Part shown: in pieces, positions 6,969-32,886 of the stretch
Position numbering within the stretch: position 1 is the stretch's first letter
Layout: each line of letters starts with the position of its first letter
Assembly (NCBI RefSeq): GCF_002286735.1
Contig: NZ_NRTA01000011.1
Coordinates: 62,001 to 126,000, forward strand
Direction: 5' to 3'
Origin: Leptolyngbya sp. BC1307
GTDB lineage: Bacteria > Cyanobacteriota > Cyanobacteriia > Phormidesmidales > Phormidesmidaceae
DNA: 64,000 nucleotides
Position numbers and translations under genes: made by a program
Notes under the pieces: generated by a model
What the model was told of the DNA's origin: nothing
Databases searched by the model: none
The model's input: the letters and a program-made list of their open reading frames with translations, nothing else

Positions 6969-7355
6969 CTAATCGTTCTCGATTTCGGAGCTTCGTGACG
7001 CACTCCGCTGCTGTAACTGCGCTTGCTTTTGCTGTTGAACGGTCTTTAGCACCGTAGAGCGCACGTACTGGCTCATCGGGGCCAAAGGCACATTGCGCTG
7101 ATGCACCTGATGTTGAAGGTATGGACTTTGATGAAGAATGCCGACCGTTTGCTTGGGCGAATTGCCTGCTTTGAGCGATAACGAGGCAACGGCATCATCG
7201 AGCTTGACCGCAGCCCAGTCGTTTTCGGCAAAGCGCTGATAGAGCGTAGCGTAATCTAGATTGGCTTCACCTGTGACGCGCTTTGCCAACTCTAGATACT
7301 GCTGCCTAGCAGCTTTGCCTGACTCGTTACTCGGCTTCTTTGGTTCCAGACCCAT
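6969..7355 (-). CDS. Hypothetical protein of the partition operon
   Basis: I do not recognise this 128-residue protein. It is hydrophilic, with a predicted helical middle (YLELAKRVTGEANLDYATLYQRF) and a glutamine-rich C-terminus (QQQKQAQLQQRSASRS). It has no signal peptide or membrane segment. It follows the putative centromere-binding gene by 18 bases in the same direction, so the three genes from 9073 down to 6969 are probably one operon. The glutamine-rich basic tail would suit an accessory DNA- or filament-binding protein, which is a guess from context. Confidence 0.55.
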   Translation of the reverse strand: MGLEPKKPSNESGKAARQQYLELAKRVTGEANLDYATLYQRFAENDWAAVKLDDAVASLSLKAGNSPKQTVGILHQSPYLQHQVHQRNVPLAPMSQYVRSTVLKTVQQQKQAQLQQRSASRSSEIEND

Positions 7356-7373
7356 GGAAGTTCAGCTCCTTAT

Positions 7374-7945: not shown

Positions 7946-9073
7946 CTAGGCAGCTACTTTGGTTAGTTTACCGATAAGCCCCTGGAATAGGCCATAGCAG
8001 TCAGACATTCGTAACGGAATCGATGGATTGTGGGTCACTTCGGGGAGCTGGCCAACCAGGTCGGTTAGCTGAGGCTGCATTTTGTCGGCGAAGATGAGGC
8101 GATCGCTCAATCCCAAAGAACTGAAGTATTCATTCAACTGCGAGCGAATAACGCCAGAGCCGCCGCCGCTGAGGATAATATCGACTGAACTATCAGTCAG
8201 TTGACTGAGCAGATTGTCTTGCAGGTAGATGCTGACTGCTTGCCAGTAGGTTTGGCGGACGAAGTTGGTGTAGGGGCCGAAGTCAGCAAGTCCGGCCTGT
8301 GCTTGAGAAATCTGCTGAGGCTTGCCAGTGGTGAGCGCCAGCATCAAAGGTGAATAGTCCGTTGGCGGAACGCCTGCTGAGCGGGTTGCTTTTTCAAAGG
8401 CAGGCCAAAAGCCAGGGCCATCGGAGTTGGAGCGACTGGCGCGGAGGGAGCCGCCTTCAAAACAGAGGATGGACAGATTGCGGTGGCCCATCATCAGGAT
8501 GAGTGTGCGGCGCTGCGTGATGGCATGTTTAGCACTATCGAGCTGCTTCTTGCGGTTGAGATAAAGGCCAAAGCCTTCGGGAAAGAACTTGAGAATGGGC
8601 TGTACCTGCTGTTGCTTGCCTCGGCAGATGAAACCTTGCTCGCAGATGGCGTTGAATTTATGGGCGATCTGTTCACGGGTTCTGATTTCAGTGAGCGGCA
8701 GCGGAAGCCAAATGAAGGCTTTGTATTGACTGGGCAGATGCTCCAGTTCGGCGGCGATGCCGAGCGCGGCTGCAATTTTGTAGGCCGCTTTCTCCGCCTT
8801 GTTCGCCGTCAGGCTGGTGCTGTCGAGAAAGGCTTTAGCGGATTCTCCAACCAGGACGATCTCGGAATCGATCTTCAGCCAGGTGCTGTCTTGAGGGCGA
8901 CCGCCTGCGTTGAGGCTAGGCAATGCCGATTCATTCAGGCTATTGGCAACGGCTGAGTCCATCCAAATTGGCACAGCCTGTCCGGGTCGGGTGCGATAGA
9001 AGAACTTGGAGGCGGATGCGCCAATGTCTCCTGCGATATGGATTGTGGGCGAAGCCACAGTGGTTTGAGTCAT
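7946..9073 (-). CDS. ParM/StbA-like actin-fold plasmid segregation ATPase
   Basis: Protein of 375 residues when started at ATG 9073, which opens MTQTTVASPTIHIAGDIGASASKFFYR. The frame runs further upstream but reads as non-protein there. The phosphate-1 loop of the actin fold is DIGASASKFFY (D at about 16). The segment RTLILMMGHRNLSILCFEGG fits the phosphate-2/connect region, and IILSGGGSGVI near residue 300 is the adenosine motif. Members polymerise with ATP to push plasmid copies apart. The first gene of a leftward operon, it is divergent from the relaxase gene, and the shared 298-base gap holds repeated TGGTT/AACCA sites. It implies that the element is or was maintained as a plasmid. Confidence 0.78.
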   Translation of the reverse strand: MTQTTVASPTIHIAGDIGASASKFFYRTRPGQAVPIWMDSAVANSLNESALPSLNAGGRPQDSTWLKIDSEIVLVGESAKAFLDSTSLTANKAEKAAYKIAAALGIAAELEHLPSQYKAFIWLPLPLTEIRTREQIAHKFNAICEQGFICRGKQQQVQPILKFFPEGFGLYLNRKKQLDSAKHAITQRRTLILMMGHRNLSILCFEGGSLRASRSNSDGPGFWPAFEKATRSAGVPPTDYSPLMLALTTGKPQQISQAQAGLADFGPYTNFVRQTYWQAVSIYLQDNLLSQLTDSSVDIILSGGGSGVIRSQLNEYFSSLGLSDRLIFADKMQPQLTDLVGQLPEVTHNPSIPLRMSDCYGLFQGLIGKLTKVAA

Positions 9074-12848: not shown

Positions 12849-13013
12849 ATAGCTTTGGTAAGGAACTGTAGACCGCTTACACAAAATTATGGACAGCCTA
12901 AAATCTTCGCTTTAAAGCAAAGCGGCATACTATGAGTTGCCTAACTATTGAGTTGTGCCGAGCCGAGCCGCGACTATTTTCGCCTCCCTGCTCACACAAA
13001 TTAAAGATGCAAA

Positions 13014-21218: not shown

Positions 21219-21927
21219 CCTCGCCCAAAGAACCTCCTCGATCAGGTGCGCGAGGTCATTCGAGCTAAGCACTATTCCTACCGCACAGAAGAAACCTACG
21301 TTCAATGGATTCGTCGCTACACCCTTTTTCATGACAAGCGCCATCCTAAAGAGAGGGGCGTGCCAGAAATTGAAAAATTCCTGACCCATTTAGCGGTGAC
21401 CCAGCGGGTATCGGCGGCAACCCAAAGCCAAGCGCTCAGTGCGCTGCTGTTTCTTTACAGGCAGGTTTTGTGCCAACCTTTGGATGGAAGAATAGAGGCT
21501 GTTAGGGCCAAGCGCTCTACCAAACTCCCGACGGTGCTGACACCAGAAGAAGTCGCCTCAGTGATTCAGCAGATGTCGGGTGTCCACCGACTAATCGCTC
21601 AGCTACTGTACGGCAGCGGATTGCGCTTACTGGAAACGATGCAGCTACGGATTAAAGGCTTGGACTTTCCCCAACATCAAATTATCGTCAGAGATGCAAA
21701 GGGGGAAAATAGTCGTGCAACGATGCTGCCTGAACGTGTAGTTCTCACTTTCGAAGAGCATTTACAAGGGATCAAGCGCATTCATGAGCAAGGCTATGGA
21801 GCGGTGACCTTGCCTCTCGCATTGGCTAGAAAGTAACCCAATGTAATGAGAGTGGATTTGGCAATTTGTCTTCCCCGCCTCCACGCGTTGCCGAGATCCT
21901 CGTAGTGAAGCTATCGTTCGTTATCAC
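21219..21927 (+). pseudogene. Decayed integron-type tyrosine integrase
   Basis: The first open part (GTG 21246 to stop 21836) reads as an IntI-type integrase N-terminus: LLDQVREVIRAKHYSYRTEE, LTHLAVTQRVSAATQSQALS and the first catalytic arginine in LLYGSGLRLLE. Three lesions are visible. No start codon lies upstream in frame before a stop at 21216. A stop at 21834-21836 replaces the Tyr of the usual RKYPNA. A frameshift follows, after which EWIWQFVFPAS and DPRSEAIVRYH continue the homology in another frame from 21850. Homology stops near 21927, so the catalytic HxxR, His/Trp and Tyr are gone. It cannot be the active recombinase of the element. Confidence 0.85.
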
Positions 21928-21930
21928 CAG

Positions 21931-24900
21931 CTATTGCCCACACTCAACAGAGCGCGGCAATGCTTTATTCGCATGGTTAAAATCTTGCTTCATGGCGGCT
22001 TTTGCCTGAACCGATAGCGGATTTCCTTTGATAAATGCAGTCGCAACCTCCCCAATTCGGTTCAAATACTGTTCAGATCGAGCAACGGAACAGGCTGCTG
22101 CGTACCATTGCCATAGCTCAGCAAGCTGCTGGTCGGGATGGGTAGGCTGTCCAGCGCCCATTAGCTGCTCATTCCAGTCTTTGCCTGTGTGCGGATATAG
22201 CCTCTCTACGCTTGGTAGTTGCCGAGCCACCCGCCAAGCCATCAGTTCACCCGACTGGTCGGCATCGAAGCCGATCACAACATTCCCCCCACGCTGCATC
22301 ACCCCCCGCAAAGCCTCTACCGGCAAAGCCCCCGCCCCATCCACCGAAAGATAAATCGTCACGCCATGCTGAGAATGATTCTGCCGATCCAACATCGCCA
22401 GCGACATCGCATCAATCGGTGATTCCGTCAGCAGCACCCGCGCAATCTGCCCGCTGCCCGTCCCCAGCCAAAACCATCCCTTATCTCTCATCGTCCCTTG
22501 GGCCATTCCTCGAAAGGCATTCTGCTCACCCCACGTTCCCCGCAAACTGGCACCTGTACTCTCCCCTCGCCGCCACTGCCCATCCGCCATCCCATGCCGG
22601 ACAAACACCACATTCTGAAAGTCATCAGCATAGATTAGGCTCTTCTCATGTAGCCGCTCCACCAGCGCCAGTGGTAGCTTTCGCGTTTCTACCAAATAGC
22701 GCTGCACCGCTTCCCAACGCCGTTCATTAGCTTGTGGCATAACCAAAGGCCGAGGTTCTTTCGGTTCTGTATGCTGATGTGAAATACTCGCAGTCTGAGA
22801 AAAGCTACGCCCCGATAGCCACTCTACAGCCTCCTTAAAATCACATTCTCTAACATGCATCACCAAATCAATCGCACCGCCACCGCCGCCCTTGTCCGCC
22901 AGCCAGTCCATGAAGAGGCGATCACTAATGCTAATAATGTGGTCACCATCGCGCCACTTATGTTTGTCATGCGGATCGCGCTCTAGCCCCAACTCAACCG
23001 CTACCCCTTCCAAATCAGCTTCCCGCACCTCATCAGCCACCTCCTTCAGCGAAGGCTCTGCAATTGCGGCAATCCTCCGAACAGGAGGCTCAGACGTTGG
23101 CGTTTCTTGCGCTTCTGACTGAAACTGCTTCTGGGCAGCCTCTACAAATCCTTGGGCAACGATGTTCTGGGCAAAAAGCTTGGCAAATTCTGAATCATGG
23201 CCTCGTAGCTCGCCCCCCTGTAGTGCGTTGGGTACCGCTACTTCCTTGAATTTGATCTGGTCATTTCCTTCAATGGCGAACACCATTTCCGTATCGATAT
23301 AGGTGTCGCCGTTCTGGCTCAGGTAGTGGGTCAGGCAAAGGTCGTTTCCTAGCCGCTCTATCACCAGAGGAATGTAAGGCTCGTTGAGAATCCTGAAATG
23401 AAAGTCCTGGTCTTTTTGAACCGTTTCCCAGAGTCCTGCTTCCTGTAAAAAGCTGATGACCTGATCTTCAAGCGTGGCTCGTTTCCCTGAAGGAGATCGC
23501 GCTAGCTGAATCGGCGGGCGCGTGATTTTGGAGGGAGACAGTACCTGCGGCTCACTTACCTGACTCAGTAAGGGTTCATCAGGTGGCGGCTTGCCAACAG
23601 CCTCATTCACCGCTGTTAGTGAGGGTAGAGAAATACCCAAGTAGTCACGAGCAACATCCTGAAACTCAAAGGCGGCTAGGGCGTAGTGCCGCTGTTTCAT
23701 CAATACCTCTAGAGCGGCATCGAGTTGGTCTGAAGTGACGGGGACTGTCATGCGATCGCCCACCGAATAAAAGTCACCCTCCACCGCAGTCAACAGCGCC
23801 TGATCCAGGTAGTACTTCCCGCCAACACCTTTTGCCTTGGGCGTCTCCAAGATAAATCCTTCCTCCCTGGGTATCTTCTTTAGCGTCAGCAGCTCATCCA
23901 ACGTCTTCACCGCACCCTGTCCATCTGTCAGCGTCGTGATAAAAGCCCTCACTTGCGCCGGTTCCGGCAGTGCCACTGGCTCATTCTCCAGCGCCTTGAT
24001 CAGCTCAAAGCCCTTCGGCATCATCAGCCCCTGACGCACCTTGCCCTGGTCATCTGTGTAGTTCACAAACTTACCAGCGGGATACTTCTCAAACGCCTTA
24101 ATCAGGTTGCCAGTAAAAATCTGACAGTGCTCGCGCTGAACGGCCTGGGCTTCGTCGAAAAGCTGGTAGATATCTTCCCCGTTCTGCGTTTGTGCGGTCG
24201 GCTGAACCTGGAGCGAGCTAACCCGGTCTGTATTGACATTGGAAAGTGGAATGACCAGTTCCCTCGCAGGCCCCGCAATCAAGATCCGCAGCTTCCAACT
24301 GTGCGGCGCAGCCGGGTTTGCCGACTTCCGCTTCTGCTCAACGCTTTCAACGACGCCATAGACAGACTCGCCCAGCCGTTCCTGCGGCGTCCGCACCTGC
24401 AGCGTTCGTCCGGGTACGAACTTTTCGAGGGCTTGTGTGACTTGCTGTAGCTGCGTATCGAGCCGCTCGGCAAATTTCTCTCTAGCCTTAGGATCTCGTT
24501 TAGTGGCGATGGTCGTGAGCCGATACTTCAATGTGTCCATTTTCAGCATGTCAACGGTAGCGGCCCGCTGCTGCTGAGCGACATTGAGCGTCTGAGTTCG
24601 GTTATGCTGATCTACTTCCAGGGCGGGTGGCAGCTTCAGTTTTTGCCTGACCGCATCAATCACCTGTAGCTGCGTCATGGGTTTCGCCAGCACTTTGGCA
24701 TCAACCACTTCCAGATACACCGCACCGGTAAACTCACTAGACTGATTGGCCTGTGCGTTTGTGACCTGGGAGTTCAAACTTTCAGCCGCGCTCACCACCT
24801 CTGCCCGAGCAACGGTTTTAGCATCCAGATCTAACTGCCCAGCCGCCAGGTTGTTGTCGCCCATTGCCTGAGCCCGCTGCACCAGTTCTTGGTAATCCCC

Positions 24901-27900
24901 TTCAATCAGGCTGTAGACTGCTTCTTGCTCAGCAATCGGCAGTAGCGGTATTCTCCCGGTGACTTTCCTCACCAGGGCAATATCCGCATCGCTGTCGCTG
25001 ACCTGGGCTAAGGGGAAGTCTAGCTGCGCATTCAGATCCGGGTCATCCTTGAGCAAATCAGTGACTACCTGCTCACCGTATTCGTTCATGAAGTCAACGA
25101 CATTTTGCAGAGAGATATCAGAGTCTCTCGCAGCGGTGGTATTGGCGTTGAGGCTGGCCATTTTTCGGCAGAGCAGGGCACCGGGCCGTTTCTCGGCAGG
25201 AATATCGCCGATGAGTAGGGTGTACCGGGGTCGCACGACCTGACCGGTGCGATGGATGCGCCCCAGCATTTGCATGAACACGTTGATATCGCGTTCTGCC
25301 TGCGCGACAATCATGTGACGAGGCCGCTGGTCGGCAAACTTCTCGGAAGCGTGCAGCGAAATGCCGGTTGAGCCAGAGCAGTTCAGCAGAATGACATCGG
25401 CTTGGCCTGCATTGAACTGGGCAACGGCATTGATTTTTCCCTTGGCGGTAGTTTCTTGGACAGGCCGAATTTTGTAGGTCGCAGAGCCATCGGCGCTGTA
25501 GGCTAATCCCACCTTACGCCCGGTGACTTCGGCAACCCGGTAGCCCGCTCGCTCTAGCTGCTGCTCGATGTAGTCAATGGGGCTAATTGGAACGCTGTAG
25601 AAGTCACCTGCTTGGATGCACTCCAGCGCGTCTTCATAGGCACTGACTCCATCGATGCCTAGCTCACCATCCGTCAGGCGGTGGCGCGTAGACTGCGCAC
25701 GATAGTCGCGAATGAGTACGTCACGAGACCGTTCTAAATAGCGCTCTAACAGGTCACCAAACGACAGACTGATGTCATTTCCGTGTTCCAGATCGTGGGC
25801 ATCCGCATAGGCTTTGATGAAGCTGCCCATGGTGTTCGCGACGGCAATCACCGGCTTTTCGCCTTGCTCAAGTGAGGAGAGGGCTGCGCGTACGGTCGCG
25901 TCTGCTTTTTGTGCGAGCAGTCCCTGTTCAATGCAGTTGTGCATGAGCGAGGTAAAGTTCGTGCTCTTTGCCCCCACTTCTCCGACGGAGGTATCTGTAC
26001 CAAACGCTTTGGCCTGCGCCTTTAGCTCATCTTTGATTGTTTTTACGGCTGCTTGCTTAGCCCGGTCAAAGTCTCGAATCGCTCGCATGGCGGCTGAGAA
26101 TTGGTCGGCGACGGCTTTATCTACTGAAACAGTCTGAGCCTGGAAGCTGACCCCTTCATAGGAACGCTCTCGCCTGAGCATGTGGCTAGCTGCGACTAGC
26201 TTACTGGCAATAATCTGCTGAAGCGGAACGCCGCCTCGATACAGAATATTCTCTAGCGAAGCCATGCTCTGAACGCCCAACCTCAGATCGGTGCGTCTGG
26301 CGTACAAGTCCATTACATCGGGGCGTTTGGCGTAGGTCGCAGAGGAGTAAAAGACGCCTTTGGACAGGTCTATCAGTTCGCGGACGAATTCTGCTCGGTC
26401 AGGCGGGCCAGTCTCTTTCCAGCCGTTCTGACTACTGCCACCGGCTTGGTGAGCTTCGTCTAGAATCAGGTAGGCGTTGGGGGCGATCGCTCTTAAAAAC
26501 TCTCGTCTCAGCGGCTCTTTCTTCTTCACCGTCTGTAGCTGACTGTAGGTGGTGAAGACCGCGCTATGGCTCGTAAGCTGCTTTCTGCGTATGATCTCCA
26601 TCATCGCCTTTTTCTGCTGCGCCGAACCGGGCGTCGTCAGCAGCCCGCCATTCGCCAGCGGAATCTCTGTATGGCTATCGGTGACAAAAGGAGAGAAGCT
26701 CCGCAGGCCGATGTCATGAACATCGCGCATCATATCGGCGTAGAGCGGTTTGTCTTTGGTAACGAAGATGGCAATTTTGCCAGTTTGCCTGGCATAGCGA
26801 ATGATGCTGGCACAGATCCGGCCTTTGCCGATGCCGGTTTGGTCGCCGGTAATGAAGCCTGACCCTCGCTCAATATTGCTGATGGCTAGTGCAGAGGCAT
26901 CGACTTGTTCAGCGCTGAAGTATCGGTGTAGCTCCGTCGTAGATGAATATCCCAGTCGTGAGCGCAGGTACTCATCAATGTTGCCGTGCTGCCCTTCAAA
27001 GCGTTCCAGAGCTAACTGTGCAGCGTTGGCCATGTTGTAGGGAATCAGCGTTTCAGAGGATTGCCCCTGGCTTTTGGAAATGTAGGGTACTTGCCGGGGC
27101 TGGAGCGGTGAGTCTGTCGTTTCTTCTGTCTCTGTCGTCAGGGCGTGAGTGTCATTAGCCATTCTTCTAGGGTGGTGTCGTCGTGCGTTTCTATCAGGTC
27201 GGGATACGTTGGATCGTTGTCGGTGATCAGCTTCATTGGGAACGTGATGCCGTAGTGCCACATCCGTTCCTGAAACCTCCAGTTGTCGTGAATCAGGAGA
27301 TTGGCCCATTCCTGTCGCCAGGAGTCGTTGTCCGTGCTGGCTGTCAGAATCGGCGTGGGCTGAGCGCTGTCGAGTTGATCTAGCGTGTTGCTCAACAGCT
27401 TTTGGGTCTCGGACAGGGAAGTCTGACTGACCCAGTCTTGAATCATGCCGTCTAGTCGGGCTTGTATGAGTTCCAGATAGGTTTTCTCGTCCAGGCGGGT
27501 GAGGGTTGGGGGTGCGCAGACGATGAAGAGAAAGGGCAGTTGCTCTGGCATCCAGAGATTCGGAAAATCCGGGTAGTTCTGATAGAGGGCGGGAGAAATT
27601 AGTAGGGGAAGATTGGATGGATTCATTCGGAATTATCTCCTTAAGTGAATGGTATGAGGTGTAGAAGGGCGGAAGCTCGGCTGCGGGGAGGGGGCGCTGA
27701 GACTGTCCGCGACCGGAAATGACGATGAGGTCAATCGGGAAACCTGCACCCTGTTTTCGGTATAGGTCACCTGAAAGTGAAAGGTGTTGAGTGACGTTGT
27801 AGTGGCGATACAGCAGGTGATAGAAGGCGCGGGTTTCGCGGCGATTGTACCGGTCGGATCTAGCAGCAGGGTCTTTTCCCAGTTTACCGCCGAGGATAAG

Positions 27901-28578
27901 AACGGCGCTGCCATGGTCTTTCATGGTCGTCAGGGCTTTGAGGGCGATCGCCTGATCAATCTGACTTGTCCAAGTGTCGTACATCGGGAAACGACGGGTG
28001 CGGCCTTGCTCATTCTTAACGGTGCCAAAGGGCGGGTTGCAGACGACTACATCAGTTTTAACATTAGGACTGTAGGCGATCGCGTCTTTCTGAGTGAGCT
28101 GGCTGTAGCCTCGGGTTTGGAGTTCGGCGATGCGATCTGGGTTGAGTTCGTTGGCGATGGTAAGCCGAGGATTAGCCCCAATCAACAGCGATCCATTCCC
28201 TGCCGTCGGTTCATACACTGTTTTTTCTGAAGTGATACCTCCCAGCACGGAAGCTAAATATGCAATAGGAACCGGCGTACTGTAAGCCTGCTGAAGCACT
28301 GAAGTAGAAGACCTCACCCCGAGCCGAGGCTGGCGCTGAAGTAGGTCGATTAGTGTGTCATAGGCTTCGTGGGTAGTTTGGGCTGTGTGAATAGAGGTTG
28401 CTGCAACGCGGACAATCGCGGCTTCAATCGCCTCATCCACCTGTTTGGCTAATGCTGAGCCGGGTAAGACAGCGGTTCCCAGCATTTCGGCGGCAAACTG
28501 ACGGGCCTCAACAATGCGATTAAAGCGACCTCCTAATAAAAAGTGTTCAGCGTAGGCTGATGTTAAAGATAGGCTCAT
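21931..28578 (-). CDS. Giant N6-methylase / strawberry-notch-type helicase / Toprim fusion protein
   Basis: Protein of 2215 residues from ATG 28578, preceded by GGAGG at 9 bases. Order: an N-terminal DNA adenine methylase (motif I EPTAGNGSLL at about 125, motif IV NPPFG at about 181); a linker of about 160 residues that is unusually rich in Arg, His and Ser; a strawberry-notch-like superfamily 2 helicase (TGIGKGRI at about 577, DEAHQAGGSS at about 705, LGRIHRTGQV at about 1100); a long helical region; and a C-terminal primase-like part with GGGGAIDLVMHVR, then DUF3991/Toprim-type LTESPIDAMSLAML and IGFDADQSGE. Such proteins occur on large plasmids. It may protect or prime incoming DNA during transfer. 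It opens the leftward transfer region, though it is transcribed last. Confidence 0.88.
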   Translation of the reverse strand: MSLSLTSAYAEHFLLGGRFNRIVEARQFAAEMLGTAVLPGSALAKQVDEAIEAAIVRVAATSIHTAQTTHEAYDTLIDLLQRQPRLGVRSSTSVLQQAYSTPVPIAYLASVLGGITSEKTVYEPTAGNGSLLIGANPRLTIANELNPDRIAELQTRGYSQLTQKDAIAYSPNVKTDVVVCNPPFGTVKNEQGRTRRFPMYDTWTSQIDQAIALKALTTMKDHGSAVLILGGKLGKDPAARSDRYNRRETRAFYHLLYRHYNVTQHLSLSGDLYRKQGAGFPIDLIVISGRGQSQRPLPAAELPPFYTSYHSLKEIIPNESIQSSPTNFSRPLSELPGFSESLDARATALSLHRLRTPNPHPPGRENLSGTHTSPTRRHDSRLGQSDFPVRDPKAVEQHARSTRQRSAHADSDSQHGQRLLATGMGQSPDSRQLEVSGTDVALRHHVPNEADHRQRSNVSRPDRNARRHHPRRMANDTHALTTETEETTDSPLQPRQVPYISKSQGQSSETLIPYNMANAAQLALERFEGQHGNIDEYLRSRLGYSSTTELHRYFSAEQVDASALAISNIERGSGFITGDQTGIGKGRICASIIRYARQTGKIAIFVTKDKPLYADMMRDVHDIGLRSFSPFVTDSHTEIPLANGGLLTTPGSAQQKKAMMEIIRRKQLTSHSAVFTTYSQLQTVKKKEPLRREFLRAIAPNAYLILDEAHQAGGSSQNGWKETGPPDRAEFVRELIDLSKGVFYSSATYAKRPDVMDLYARRTDLRLGVQSMASLENILYRGGVPLQQIIASKLVAASHMLRRERSYEGVSFQAQTVSVDKAVADQFSAAMRAIRDFDRAKQAAVKTIKDELKAQAKAFGTDTSVGEVGAKSTNFTSLMHNCIEQGLLAQKADATVRAALSSLEQGEKPVIAVANTMGSFIKAYADAHDLEHGNDISLSFGDLLERYLERSRDVLIRDYRAQSTRHRLTDGELGIDGVSAYEDALECIQAGDFYSVPISPIDYIEQQLERAGYRVAEVTGRKVGLAYSADGSATYKIRPVQETTAKGKINAVAQFNAGQADVILLNCSGSTGISLHASEKFADQRPRHMIVAQAERDINVFMQMLGRIHRTGQVVRPRYTLLIGDIPAEKRPGALLCRKMASLNANTTAARDSDISLQNVVDFMNEYGEQVVTDLLKDDPDLNAQLDFPLAQVSDSDADIALVRKVTGRIPLLPIAEQEAVYSLIEGDYQELVQRAQAMGDNNLAAGQLDLDAKTVARAEVVSAAESLNSQVTNAQANQSSEFTGAVYLEVVDAKVLAKPMTQLQVIDAVRQKLKLPPALEVDQHNRTQTLNVAQQQRAATVDMLKMDTLKYRLTTIATKRDPKAREKFAERLDTQLQQVTQALEKFVPGRTLQVRTPQERLGESVYGVVESVEQKRKSANPAAPHSWKLRILIAGPARELVIPLSNVNTDRVSSLQVQPTAQTQNGEDIYQLFDEAQAVQREHCQIFTGNLIKAFEKYPAGKFVNYTDDQGKVRQGLMMPKGFELIKALENEPVALPEPAQVRAFITTLTDGQGAVKTLDELLTLKKIPREEGFILETPKAKGVGGKYYLDQALLTAVEGDFYSVGDRMTVPVTSDQLDAALEVLMKQRHYALAAFEFQDVARDYLGISLPSLTAVNEAVGKPPPDEPLLSQVSEPQVLSPSKITRPPIQLARSPSGKRATLEDQVISFLQEAGLWETVQKDQDFHFRILNEPYIPLVIERLGNDLCLTHYLSQNGDTYIDTEMVFAIEGNDQIKFKEVAVPNALQGGELRGHDSEFAKLFAQNIVAQGFVEAAQKQFQSEAQETPTSEPPVRRIAAIAEPSLKEVADEVREADLEGVAVELGLERDPHDKHKWRDGDHIISISDRLFMDWLADKGGGGGAIDLVMHVRECDFKEAVEWLSGRSFSQTASISHQHTEPKEPRPLVMPQANERRWEAVQRYLVETRKLPLALVERLHEKSLIYADDFQNVVFVRHGMADGQWRRGESTGASLRGTWGEQNAFRGMAQGTMRDKGWFWLGTGSGQIARVLLTESPIDAMSLAMLDRQNHSQHGVTIYLSVDGAGALPVEALRGVMQRGGNVVIGFDADQSGELMAWRVARQLPSVERLYPHTGKDWNEQLMGAGQPTHPDQQLAELWQWYAAACSVARSEQYLNRIGEVATAFIKGNPLSVQAKAAMKQDFNHANKALPRSVECGQ
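27138..27626 (-). CDS. Unknown 162-residue protein encoded out of frame inside the giant helicase gene
   Basis: The frame lies within the giant gene on the same strand but in another frame, exactly over its Arg/His/Ser-rich linker (residues about 318-480). Its ATG has a good ribosome-binding site (AAGGAG, about 10 bases upstream). The product looks like a folded acidic protein (PALYQNYPDFPNLWMPEQLP, SWRQEWANLLIHDNWRF, DTTLEEWLMTL), whereas the giant frame here reads like out-of-frame translation. This supports a real gene whose sequence forces the linker composition. It has no recognised family. It could be translated separately from the same mRNA. Confidence 0.65.
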   Translation of the reverse strand: MNPSNLPLLISPALYQNYPDFPNLWMPEQLPFLFIVCAPPTLTRLDEKTYLELIQARLDGMIQDWVSQTSLSETQKLLSNTLDQLDSAQPTPILTASTDNDSWRQEWANLLIHDNWRFQERMWHYGITFPMKLITDNDPTYPDLIETHDDTTLEEWLMTLTP

Positions 28579-28640
28579 CCTGTACGCCTCCAAAAGCTAG
28601 CGTCGGGAGAGTGAGAAGGGCAGCGCTGAAAAAAGAGAGC

Positions 28641-29015
28641 CTAGAGCTTTGCCCTTTCTATCGCAATTAAGTCTTCAACGATGCGCGTACTTATCCCGTT
28701 TTGTTGATCGATCTCTTTGACGGTGAGATACTGCTCAATTGCAGCAGCGGGCTGATCTAAAGCTGACAGTACTGACCCCTGTTCCAGATAGGTATCGCTG
28801 TTATCCGGTTCTAGCCGCGCTGCCTGTTCATAGTCACTCAAAGCTTTTTCGTAATCGCCTGCGTCCTCATAGAGTTCACCACGTCTTAGAAACTCTTTTG
28901 CCCCTTGCGGTTCAGGGTAGAGCGTCTGCGGTTCAGGTGTGCCCCGGCCCGCGCCAATAACAGCTATCAGCATCAGCAAAATCAATGAGCCAGGGACAAC
29001 AATGACGAAGCGCAT
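28641..29015 (-). CDS. Membrane-anchored tetratricopeptide repeat protein
   Basis: Protein of 124 residues with an N-terminal hydrophobic anchor (FVIVVPGSLILLMLIAVIGAG, residues 3-23) and about two tetratricopeptide repeats: AKEFLRRGELYEDAGDYEKAL, then SDTYLEQGSVLSALDQPAAA. TPR proteins mediate protein contacts; here it would sit at the periplasmic face of the membrane. It is part of the leftward run from the secretion genes, 10 bases after the preceding gene. The exact role is unknown. Confidence 0.7.
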   Translation of the reverse strand: MRFVIVVPGSLILLMLIAVIGAGRGTPEPQTLYPEPQGAKEFLRRGELYEDAGDYEKALSDYEQAARLEPDNSDTYLEQGSVLSALDQPAAAIEQYLTVKEIDQQNGISTRIVEDLIAIERAKL

Positions 29016-29025
29016 AGTTTTCTCC

Positions 29026-30780
29026 TCAATCCATTTCTATCGCAGTGACTTTTTTCGAGTTATTCGTGGCGGGTTGGCCCTGACTCGGAGCCATTCCCTG
29101 CATTTTGCTAGCCAGCCGGTCAAAATGCTCAAAGTCTTGACCGTTTAGCTTTGAGAAGACTTCCCCGTTTTGACGCTGAAAAACGACGCCTCGCCCGTTC
29201 TGCTTATCGCTAATGCGGAGTAAGTCACCTTCCCCGATTTCTATCTTGAACTGCCCGCCTTCTTTACTCCAGCTTTTAGCAAAGGCAAAGTTCTTCAGGA
29301 AATGTCGGGACGTATTTTCTACCTGCCGAGTTTTCTGGGCGTATGCTGCTTCAACATCCAGGCTGCTCTGAGGTGAAAATGTCCGATTTGACTGAGCCGT
29401 TAAGAAGCCCTGGCGCTGCTCACTGGTGAGGCGATCACTTACAGAAAACACCTCTAGCCGCCGACCTAATCCCAAAAATTTAGACGTTTTGAACTTCATG
29501 AGTTCACCTGCTGCGTCCTTCAGCACGTATAAATTTTGATCCTTACAGGTAATAGTACAGCCTTTCACCCGATATGAGTGTTCGCCTGTACGTCCATGCC
29601 CACGCTGGAAAATCTGTTGAACGGCACTGGCTAGCCGTTGATTTTGCAGGGCGGACTGCTGGCCCTTCAGCCAGCTAGTACCCTGCTGTGGTTTGGTGGA
29701 TAGCCACTGACCTACCTGCTGTTTCCAATCCTGAATCGTCGCTTGTAAAAGCTCTCGGGCATAGCCTTCGGGCAGTTTCTGAGTTTCACGCTCCAGGACG
29801 GAAAAAGCAGCAGGTTGCGAACCTGTTGCTTCTACAACTTGTTTGATAGGCTCTACTATTTGAGTCTGTGACGGGACAGCACCATTTTGAGTCTGTGACG
29901 GGACAGTGCCATTCGTAGCATGAGATGACCGGGCAGCGTCTAAAGCTGCCTTCGGGAGAGAAATCTGAGGCTGAACGGCATCGAGTGCAGTCTGAGGGAA
30001 CCGCTCCGGCATCTGAATTTGACTCAGTGCTGCCCAGTCTCGCTCAGTGACTTGATCGCTCATGATTTCACCGCCACGAGCAACTAAAATCAGCCGTTCT
30101 CCCTGACTCACCGTAATATGTTGATCGCTCTGCTTGATTTGATATCCCTGAACAGAAACGGCATCGTACATACCTTCTTGCTGTCGGAGAGGATTAATAA
30201 GGTACTCAGCAGTCCGCAAAATTTGGTCGGCTTTGCTGACGGTGAACGTGTTCTCAATTGCTGCCGGATTTGCCACATAAACGGGCGGTGATGCCTGCTC
30301 TGGTTCATTCTGTTTTGCTGGAGCTGGTGCTATTTGTTTTTTTTGTTTTGCTTGATTCTCCTGCTTTGTCTGACTCTCTTGCTCTACTTGGAACTGAATC
30401 TCATTGGTGGTGACGGTGCCATCTCGCTCTTCTCTAAAAAGCAAAACATCGCCCTGAAAGATCTCTACAGCTGGCACCTTGTTCGCGTACTTTGAGGGAT
30501 CAACATCAGGTGTCACAGGCCGTTGCAGGGCATCGGCAATCACTTTCAGGCTGTTGGCATCTAACTCGTGGCGGAACGGGCCATCTGCAAGCTGGCCATA
30601 TACCAGCCGTCTCCCCATTTTGATTCGTAGAGAATCGCCACGGGCATTGCTAGTCGAATTGTTCGCGGCCAATCTGAGAACAGCGGGTACGCGCTGGGCG
30701 ACTTGAGCGATCGCACTAATTAACTGCGCTTCGTCTTCCTGCATCGCCTGAGCGGCATCGGGTCGTATCGTAAAGGGCAT
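29026..30780 (-). CDS. Large plasmid-type protein of unknown function
   Basis: Protein of 584 residues that I do not recognise. It appears to contain three related beta-rich modules: around residues 45-145 (MGRRLVYGQL, VEIFQGDVLLFREERDG), 190-265 (VQGYQIKQSDQHITVSQGERLILVARGG) and 395-470 (YRVKGCTITCKDQNLYVLKDAAG). They are separated by a Lys/Gln-rich linker and a region with repeated SQTQNG. A further strand-rich segment (FKIEIGEGDLLRISD) is near 530. It has no signal peptide or membrane segment. It lies between the coupling-protein gene and the giant helicase gene, pointing to a DNA-processing or relaxosome role. Confidence 0.6.
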   Translation of the reverse strand: MPFTIRPDAAQAMQEDEAQLISAIAQVAQRVPAVLRLAANNSTSNARGDSLRIKMGRRLVYGQLADGPFRHELDANSLKVIADALQRPVTPDVDPSKYANKVPAVEIFQGDVLLFREERDGTVTTNEIQFQVEQESQTKQENQAKQKKQIAPAPAKQNEPEQASPPVYVANPAAIENTFTVSKADQILRTAEYLINPLRQQEGMYDAVSVQGYQIKQSDQHITVSQGERLILVARGGEIMSDQVTERDWAALSQIQMPERFPQTALDAVQPQISLPKAALDAARSSHATNGTVPSQTQNGAVPSQTQIVEPIKQVVEATGSQPAAFSVLERETQKLPEGYARELLQATIQDWKQQVGQWLSTKPQQGTSWLKGQQSALQNQRLASAVQQIFQRGHGRTGEHSYRVKGCTITCKDQNLYVLKDAAGELMKFKTSKFLGLGRRLEVFSVSDRLTSEQRQGFLTAQSNRTFSPQSSLDVEAAYAQKTRQVENTSRHFLKNFAFAKSWSKEGGQFKIEIGEGDLLRISDKQNGRGVVFQRQNGEVFSKLNGQDFEHFDRLASKMQGMAPSQGQPATNNSKKVTAIEMD

Positions 30781-30793
30781 GGTAAAACTCTCT

Positions 30794-31162
30794 CTATTTC
30801 AAAAGGTCTTGTAGGACGCTTACTTTTGCAATGCCTTCTATGCGATTGATGATGATCTCGCCACCAATTTGAAATAAAGCGACTTCATCGTCAAACCGAT
30901 ATTCGATAAAAGACGGTTGGTAGTCTTCAAGGCATTCGCGTAAGCGAGTGACCACACCATCTTCCGTTCGGATATAGGGCACGTCGTCAAATAGCACTTC
31001 GATAACCTTTGGAACGTAGCCCGGTGGCAGAGGCGGTAACAGTCTGTCTGCTGCCAAGCTCTGAAGAATCGTCGGCTCATTATTTAGTGCTTTGATAGCT
31101 TGCTTAGATAGCCCCCACAGGGCCGGGTCTAAGTGCTTATTTCTCAGCGTTTTCGTAGGCAT
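30794..31162 (-). CDS. Hypothetical protein next to the coupling protein
   Basis: Protein of 122 residues, soluble and mildly acidic, opening with a basic stretch (MPTKTLRNKHLDPALWG). It contains PPLPPGYVPKVIEVLFDDV and closes with IINRIEGIAKVSVLQDLLK. No family was recognised. It is 14 bases from both neighbours' ends in the same direction, so it is co-transcribed with the coupling protein gene and may belong to DNA transfer. Confidence 0.55.
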   Translation of the reverse strand: MPTKTLRNKHLDPALWGLSKQAIKALNNEPTILQSLAADRLLPPLPPGYVPKVIEVLFDDVPYIRTEDGVVTRLRECLEDYQPSFIEYRFDDEVALFQIGGEIIINRIEGIAKVSVLQDLLK

Positions 31163-31176
31163 ATGCTTAACTCCAT

Positions 31177-32886
31177 CTAACGAAAGACTTCATCGAATTC
31201 GTCCTCTGTGATGTCAACGTCGGCATCTGAAAAGGGTTCTCCTTGGATATCACCCATCGGCAGCGGAAACAGACGCTCGGCCATTTCTTTACGGACTTTG
31301 TTTTCCTGGTCTAGATCAGTGAGGGTTCGCTGACTGGCGGTGCGATCGCTCAATGACTGCCTCACACTTTGATTCCAAAGCTCAACGCTGCGAGCCTGCC
31401 GCTTATCTTCCTGCGCAGAGATCTTGACCTTCAATCTGAGCGGAACAGAGGCTTCTCCGCCGCCCCGATAAGCAGGGTTAATAAACACACACTCACCCTG
31501 ATCTAACTTCAGAATTTGGTCTGGCGTCAGCAGCGGCACCTTCTGATAGTGTTCGGAGCGGCTACTGCTGCCGTGCTGCCCTCTAGTGCGAGACCGCGTA
31601 TGATACCGAACGTCCTTTTCGCCTAAGTAGCTAGAAAACTCCTGAGCGGTTTCTCGATCTTTTGGGTTGAAAAAGACTTTCGTTCCACAGGCCGCGAACA
31701 GTGCCTTGGATAGCTCGCGCCCATAGATGTGCTGAAGCTGTGCAAAGTTCTGATAGCCTAGCAGCGCTACGAACCCGTTGGAGCGAAACTCATTGATCCA
31801 CTTAGGCAAATCTGGTAGATATAGCGTGGGCAGCTCATCTAAAGCAATAATCAGCGGCTCTTTGCGGGCCGTTGCGAAGTTTCGTGAAACGATCAGGTGT
31901 AGCACCGCTGCCAAAAGTGGACTGACGGCATCCCGTTTTTGAATATCCGCTTGTAGAAAAAGCACTTGCTTCCCAGCGATATCTAGCGGTACTGAAGTTT
32001 TACCGCAGAAGCTAGAGACGAGAGACTTGCCTGTAAACGATTTTAGCGTTCGCTGAGCAGTGGCAACAATACCGGCAATTTGTTTTTCAGCGCCTTCAGA
32101 AGACAGAATCTGACTCAGGCTCTCCATTGTCCATATCGGAACCCATCCAGACTCTCCCGCGAGCCTGAGTCTAGCAGGCAGCTCTGTCAAATTCAGAATC
32201 TTGCTAGCCATGAGCAAATCTGGATACGGCGTCAGCTTTGCCAATAGCATGACCGCCTCTACCAGGGTGGTGCCCGCGCTGCTAAAGAAATCATTTTCCT
32301 TGTACCCCGTATCCCGTTGAGCATTTTTCTGTAAAACATAAGCCAGTTGAGAAGCCATGAGAGAATCTGTTTCATCGGTCAAAAAGTCCAAGAGGTTGAA
32401 AACGCTGGTGTAGGATTGTCCTGGCGCAAAGATGTTTACCTGATAGCCCTGAGCTGCTGCCCAAGCTGCATGAGCTTCGAGCTGACTGCCTTTGAAGTCG
32501 TAAATGACGAGGGGAAAGCCCTGTGCGATCGCTGATCTAATCGCCGGGTCGATAATGCTGTAGGTCTTGCCCGAATCAGGCGCACCGGCAATCACCAAGC
32601 TTTGCTGCGCCTGAGGAATATCGACATTGCCCGCTCTGAGTGAGACTTTAGCCGTTCGTCTCTCTTTCCGCTGCTTGTGAGCAATGCTCTTGGCCTGCCG
32701 CCGTTCGGATCGCCCCGCAAATCGCCCGGTGGAAATTTTTCCTTTCTTCCCGGAGTCCGCCAGCCATGCCCCTGCCCATAGGATTCCGCCACCCACAAGC
32801 AGCAGCACCCCACCAGAGTCCGTAAAAGCGGTCACGATCTCCTGAAGCGTGTCCACATAAGTTTGCATCAGAATCAGCTCATTCAT
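31177..32886 (-). CDS. Type IV coupling protein (VirD4/TraD/TraG family)
   Basis: Protein of 569 residues. One N-terminal membrane helix (GVLLLVGGGILWAGAWLA, about 24-41) is followed by a Walker A motif, AGAPDSGKTYS, at about 98. The Walker B and TraG signature LIIALDELPTLY lies at about 343, with GYQNFAQLQHIYGRE and FFNPKDRETAQEFSSYLGE after it. A C-terminal acidic tail ends FDEVFR. This ATPase links the relaxase-DNA complex to the secretion channel at the inner membrane. Its start overlaps the end of the preceding gene by 8 bases, so translation may be coupled. It is short on the cytoplasmic side compared with TraD. Confidence 0.9.
   Translation of the reverse strand: MNELILMQTYVDTLQEIVTAFTDSGGVLLLVGGGILWAGAWLADSGKKGKISTGRFAGRSERRQAKSIAHKQRKERRTAKVSLRAGNVDIPQAQQSLVIAGAPDSGKTYSIIDPAIRSAIAQGFPLVIYDFKGSQLEAHAAWAAAQGYQVNIFAPGQSYTSVFNLLDFLTDETDSLMASQLAYVLQKNAQRDTGYKENDFFSSAGTTLVEAVMLLAKLTPYPDLLMASKILNLTELPARLRLAGESGWVPIWTMESLSQILSSEGAEKQIAGIVATAQRTLKSFTGKSLVSSFCGKTSVPLDIAGKQVLFLQADIQKRDAVSPLLAAVLHLIVSRNFATARKEPLIIALDELPTLYLPDLPKWINEFRSNGFVALLGYQNFAQLQHIYGRELSKALFAACGTKVFFNPKDRETAQEFSSYLGEKDVRYHTRSRTRGQHGSSSRSEHYQKVPLLTPDQILKLDQGECVFINPAYRGGGEASVPLRLKVKISAQEDKRQARSVELWNQSVRQSLSDRTASQRTLTDLDQENKVRKEMAERLFPLPMGDIQGEPFSDADVDITEDEFDEVFR

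Follow-up and report, generated by a model that had tools for sequence, protein, structure and literature searches.

A conserved gene nested out of frame in the linker of a mobile-element methylase-helicase gene

We found that a 162-codon reading frame, located between the methylase and helicase parts of a giant gene and read in its +1 frame, is almost certainly a real nested gene. The window, the whole stretch of 64,000 nucleotides of Leptolyngbya sp. BC1307 that was analysed, spans positions 62,001-126,000 of contig NZ_NRTA01000011.1 and contains the complete locus. The explanation as a whole, in which one mRNA would give two products and the linker of the enzyme is overprinted, has in our estimate a probability of about 0.86. 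The initial annotation had reported a 162-residue frame with AAGGAG upstream, and both are present. The features are as follows.

27138..27626, minus strand: the nested gene, 162 aa, running from ATG to TGA and read in +1 with respect to the giant gene
27637..27642, minus strand: Shine-Dalgarno (SD) AAGGAG of the nested gene, read in the sequence
27633..27635, minus strand: TAA that ends the +1 frame two codons ahead of the nested ATG and speaks against entry by frameshifting
21931..28593, minus strand: giant methylase-helicase (polyvalent-type) gene, 2220 codons, a single open frame
27892..28065, minus strand: residues 177-234 of the giant frame, which match an N6-methylase weakly and contain an NPPF motif
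27138..27627, minus strand: linker between the domains in the giant frame, where the nested gene overprints it
26101..26865, minus strand: AAA_34 (strawberry-notch-type P-loop) domain, residues 577-831
24853..25542, minus strand: Helicase_C_4 (strawberry notch C-terminal) domain, residues 1018-1247

The ATG of the nested gene is separated by 10 nt from the end of the AAGGAG, and the large frame is open across the overlap. The small frame does lie over the methylase-helicase linker. The linker had been described as rich in Arg, His and Ser, and its large-frame translation indeed reads as overprinted low-complexity text (14.1% R, 12.9% S and 8.0% H, with W and Y absent). The N6-methylase match in the giant frame (E 0.0057) is below the Pfam cut-off. 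The giant gene also encodes DUF6908, DUF3991 and a Toprim-like domain. The genes upstream of it (28641-31162 and 31177-32886) include a type IV coupling protein (TraG/TraD-like), and the gene order there is shared with a plasmid of Leptolyngbya NIES-3755, suggesting a conjugative element. A short integrase-like frame, recognized by eye from its translation, adjoins the 3' end of the giant gene (21246-21836, plus strand).

Both frames of the overlap are under selection, purifying on the small frame and for openness on the large frame. Among 24 close pairs of loci (23 distinct, as (L081,L095) and (L086,L094) are near-copies), substitution rates at small-frame codon positions 1, 2 and 3 were 0.211, 0.137 and 0.295. 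The large-frame wobble position, which is small-frame position 2, was thus the least variable position in the overlap; in the helicase part of the same loci, the rates at the large-frame codon positions were 0.134, 0.087 and 0.416. Amino-acid identity was higher in the small frame than in the large frame in 23/23 pairs. When relatives were aligned with the window, nine of 11 scored 38-188 in the small frame (the two copies of genome G308 scored 22 and 18), compared with at most 32 for all 11 in the large frame. These higher identities and scores indicate that the small frame is the conserved one, so that conservation of the large frame only, which would have spoken against the initial proposal, is excluded. 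Beyond stop avoidance, the large frame showed little amino-acid conservation in the overlap.

The avoidance of stops was revealed by synonymous shuffling of 72 small genes, taken from loci that were picked by helicase similarity and small-ORF length irrespective of an open large frame and that are related rather than independent, so that a log P summed over them is no true probability. No stop was observed in the large frame, compared with 141.7 expected, and the third frame was near expectation with 787 stops compared with 764. When the small ORF of the window was shuffled in this way, the large frame stayed open in 0.3% of trials. We set aside as evidence the forward and reverse shuffles of a larger set, because its loci had been chosen for open frames. 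The small frame was open along the whole match in 8/8 of its tblastn-matched relatives, so that the stop codons that might have refuted it are absent from them.

The initial annotation had also taken two overlaps in one element to suggest a pattern. This was not confirmed within the element; the pattern runs across elements instead. Among the alternative-frame ORFs checked in the giant gene, only an antisense ORF at 23953-24450 (plus strand) was open in its few partial matches. It encodes 165 aa, the matched stretches in four relatives (43-154 aa) are stop-free, and its openness may be due to chance.

Next, we examined how widely the arrangement recurs. Searching with the small protein by tblastn returned four plasmid records, all cyanobacterial and with 28-33% identity, making cyanobacterial plasmids the best relatives of the window. 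Each match falls in the +1 frame within a gene annotated as a strawberry-notch or helicase protein, and the small gene is unannotated in all four. A profile of the small protein matched 7/386 genomes of the phylum, as did the helicase (7/386), with six genomes in common. The seventh helicase genome (G296) carries a diverged copy, and the seventh small-protein match (G102, E 0.004) is probably due to chance. Each of the cyanobacterial loci (13/13) has a +1 ORF in the same position, and the large frame reads through it uninterrupted. The same layout is present in a Thalassospira plasmid and a Bacteroides phage.

When IMG/VR was scanned with the helicase, 88 contigs were added, nearly all with a +1 linker ORF; these samples are the best 80 of 375-385 relatives per scan, and the rates therefore apply to near relatives of the queries. 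Near-copies (80% nucleotide identity over 600 nt) were removed. Of the non-redundant representatives that were left, 71/74 had a +1 linker ORF of at least 90 aa and 1/74 had a +2 ORF. A +1 ORF of at least 90 aa was found in the neighbouring helicase zone of 7/74 representatives, and in the methylase zone +1 ORFs are fairly common too (26/74). Two loci without an 80-aa ORF in the scanned zone carry the ORF further upstream. With two further scans the collection grew to 272 loci, from which 20 without the helicase motif and five that were too short were dropped before counting, leaving 247 usable loci and 134 non-redundant plasmid and phage representatives. A +1 linker ORF of at least 80 aa was found in 118 of the 122 fused representatives, compared with a +2 ORF in 1/122; when all fused loci were counted, the numbers were 213/219 and 1/219. 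The family HMMs matched 91/122 fused representatives, every time in the +1 frame. Four of the 122 lack the ORF. In two of the 118, from Vogesella and P. putida, the +1 ORFs show no similarity to the family, lie in G+C-rich DNA and are probably there by chance. Among more distant methylase-helicases, no family member was found in Serratia symbiotica, P. putida or Vogesella, and the same layout was not found in the methylase-helicase stretch of P1 DarB or in an Acinetobacter phage. Loci L146 and L233, classed as non-fused in the count of 134 representatives because of a misplaced motif, were treated as carriers in the tree described below.

Several individual loci differ in structure. In Picosynechococcus PCC 7003 (L022 / L028) the giant gene stops early, at 1115 codons, and the nested gene is intact. 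On plasmid pAQ6 of PCC 7002 (L003), where the nested gene lies at 7968-8471, the N-terminus of the giant protein repeats a stretch of its C-terminal part (7280-7365 and near 13000), which looks like replacement of the gene's 5' end by a rearrangement. Genome G308 has two diverged copies of the giant gene (L025, L026) with one nested gene in each. In plasmid pGMOR1 of Gloeobacter morelensis (L029, 5411-10335) the public annotation comprises the nested gene plus a helicase CDS that runs over the end of it. The methylase half is unannotated, although one frame spans everything.

To judge how the nested frame could be translated, we compared the 118 nested starts with ATGs in the same frame within the helicase part. 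An SD match of at least 5 nt preceded 55/118 nested starts and 176/2688 control ATGs; some loci have no good SD. In 100/118 loci a stop ends the +1 frame no more than 10 codons ahead of the first start, and the median distance is four codons. This leaves little room for entry by frameshifting, which we rejected on these upstream stops. A separate restart for the helicase was also considered, and only a weak signal was obtained: an SD match of at least 5 nt in 20/118 loci, taken as the best of several candidate starts and weaker than that of the small gene, and a conserved restart was not evident among the 118 loci. As judged from the sequence, the nested protein is most likely made by internal initiation.

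Three other readings of the coding content were weighed against the nested gene. If only the large frame were coding, the small ORF would be a by-product of composition and mirrored conservation, and antisense ORFs in the conserved domains do likewise give tblastn similarity. However, antisense ORFs of the same size in the giant gene mostly have stops in relatives, unlike the small ORF, and with these controls chance or mirrored conservation was ruled out. Nothing comparable is seen in the +2 frame, and the small frame is the better conserved one. The tracking of small-frame codon positions by the substitutions already refutes this reading, which has next to no chance of being right. The fusion could instead be an annotation artefact, with separate methylase, small and helicase genes whose dividing stops are missing by accident, and this would fit the in-frame start near the small-gene stop in some loci as well as the overlapping small gene and helicase annotated in Gloeobacter. 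It is very unlikely in view of the complete lack of stops in 72 loci chosen regardless of the large frame, and the weakness of the pre-helicase restart signals also argues against it. Programmed +1 frameshifting, yielding a methylase-small protein fusion, agrees with the position of the small frame downstream of the methylase and in +1. Yet that frame closes a median of four codons ahead of the small start, the small gene has an ATG preceded by an SD, and a homologue stands alone in Leptolyngbya boryana, which makes frameshifting very unlikely indeed.

The nested proteins are probably one family. Using hhalign, we found that the profiles of the cyanobacterial proteins, of phage type A and of intermediates matched each other with probabilities of 96.9-98.6, with 96.9-98.4 between the cyanobacterial and phage families; the shorter phage type B gave weaker probabilities (67-93), and the proteins of Bacteroides phages, encoded at the same place and in the same frame, had no sequence homology detectable by hhalign. 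Traits in common, seen by eye, are an N-terminal W.P, a conserved Arg and a C-terminal L..W(V/L)..L motif. They are acidic proteins, with a median pI of 4.6 and a pI below 5.5 in 69/72. Within the overlap, the small-frame translation favours L, E and W. That of the large frame favours G, R, S and P, and F, W, Y, I and C are scarce in it.

The initial view of the embedded frame as a folded protein was borne out by its conservation under purifying selection and, at the level of prediction, by structural models. AlphaFold (AF2, without decoy control) gave a pLDDT of 85.4 and a pTM of 0.81 for the window protein, and 93.0 and 0.86 for a phage homologue. The fold is predicted to be a small helical domain that includes short strands, and the order of strands and helices is similar in the two models. 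Foldseek at E 0.001 or better returned no match in the PDB for either model and none in BFVD for the phage model; a second look at the folds with VIA gave a Z of 2.4 at most. Neither result is proof of a new fold. A sequence search of solved structures gave no match, and Pfam, NCBIfam, PHROGs and PADLOC gave only weak matches in one or two members, none convincing. The absence from family libraries is probably due to gene callers that suppress nested genes. In the open-access literature no report of this nested gene was found, and the small protein appears to have been overlooked so far. Mass-spectrometry spectra exist for PCC 7002 and, according to PMC3364912, were searched in six frames with plasmid NC_010480 included.

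We then asked with which architecture the small gene travels. The initial annotation had suggested looking for it as a separate gene between split methylase and helicase genes. This layout was not found: the small gene is present in 0/21 loci in which the methylase is split off or missing. The sole stand-alone copy, in L. boryana NIES-2135 (HMM E 8.4e-13), lies directly upstream of a 3499-codon helicase gene and not between methylase and helicase. The 3499-codon polypeptide has a sub-threshold methylase match further along, and the operon upstream resembles that of the window. In the helicase tree, carriers are strongly clustered (four changes compared with 15.3 in shuffles), and all 71 loci in the half of the main clade that contains the window are carriers (71/71). 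The dependence of the small gene on the fused polypeptide suggests a dedicated partner. Since it is found with the fusion, is missing in split loci and still sits beside a helicase gene when un-nested, the small protein may, at roughly even odds, be a subunit, chaperone or regulator of the fused enzyme.

The methylase-helicase dyad of polyvalent proteins, whose archetype is P1 DarB, has been described as modifying and protecting transferred DNA in the part of Iyer et al. 2017 (PMC5512222) that concerns it. By analogy with this dyad, the small protein might protect or process the DNA of the element on entry. The window gene resembles the dyad in having an N6-adenine methylase with an NPP(Y/F) motif, here NPPF, fused to an SNF2-like helicase, which is of the strawberry-notch type mentioned in the same part of that paper, and in being carried by conjugative elements and phages. 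It differs in its nested gene, which is unmentioned in the section of PMC5512222 on the dyad and has no comparable ORF in the methylase-helicase stretch of P1 DarB. A tblastn search with the window helicase at E 1e-6 did not retrieve P1.

Alternatively, the small protein might act in counter-defence independently of the enzyme, for instance as an acidic DNA mimic that blocks restriction enzymes, and share the gene for co-delivery. Ocr and ArdA are such acidic DNA-mimic anti-restriction proteins, and the nested protein is likewise small, strongly acidic and carried by mobile elements, in this case phages and elements of conjugative type. Related methylase-helicase proteins are anti-restriction proteins as well, according to the same part of PMC5512222. 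However, no sequence or fold match to Ocr, ArdA or other solved DNA mimics was found, which is weak evidence, and the confinement of the small gene to fused loci points to reliance on the enzyme. We consider an independent role rather unlikely.

Complete genes nested out of frame are known from phages, such as phiX174 E within D and Rz1 within Rz. The gene described here is similar in being a complete ORF inside another in a different frame, apparently with internal initiation; both frames are open in relatives and under selection, and it has its own ribosome-binding site. It differs in that the host frame is the inter-domain linker of a very large enzyme, and in that the nesting recurs in Cyanobacteriota, an alphaproteobacterial plasmid and many phage lineages.

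For the nested gene we propose that one mRNA would carry the giant frame together with a self-contained +1 gene, with its own ribosome-binding site, between the enzyme domains. Initiation at the start of the giant gene would give the fused enzyme, in which the overprinted segment would serve as a flexible linker, and internal initiation would give a small, acidic, mostly helical protein. The large frame would need only a linker at this place, and the small frame would make the fold. There is about an even chance that a large family of mobile-element methylase-helicases is a two-product system, in which, for every fused enzyme of this clade, the linker DNA encodes an enzyme-assisting protein of apparently new fold. 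The linker itself could then be, with the odds equally balanced, a by-product of the nested gene, and the family would have been invisible so far because annotation pipelines reject nested ORFs.

The nested gene adds an overlooked protein family to the counter-defence-type genes of phages and conjugative elements. Annotation pipelines lose it, as in the four plasmid records first examined, and in Gloeobacter the small gene was called and the methylase part was lost. The finding indicates that a nested gene can last across very deep divergence where the host frame need be no more than a disordered linker. Two questions can now be put to the test: whether hidden genes systematically occupy linkers of this kind, and whether anti-restriction proteins of the methylase-helicase type depend on a small partner.
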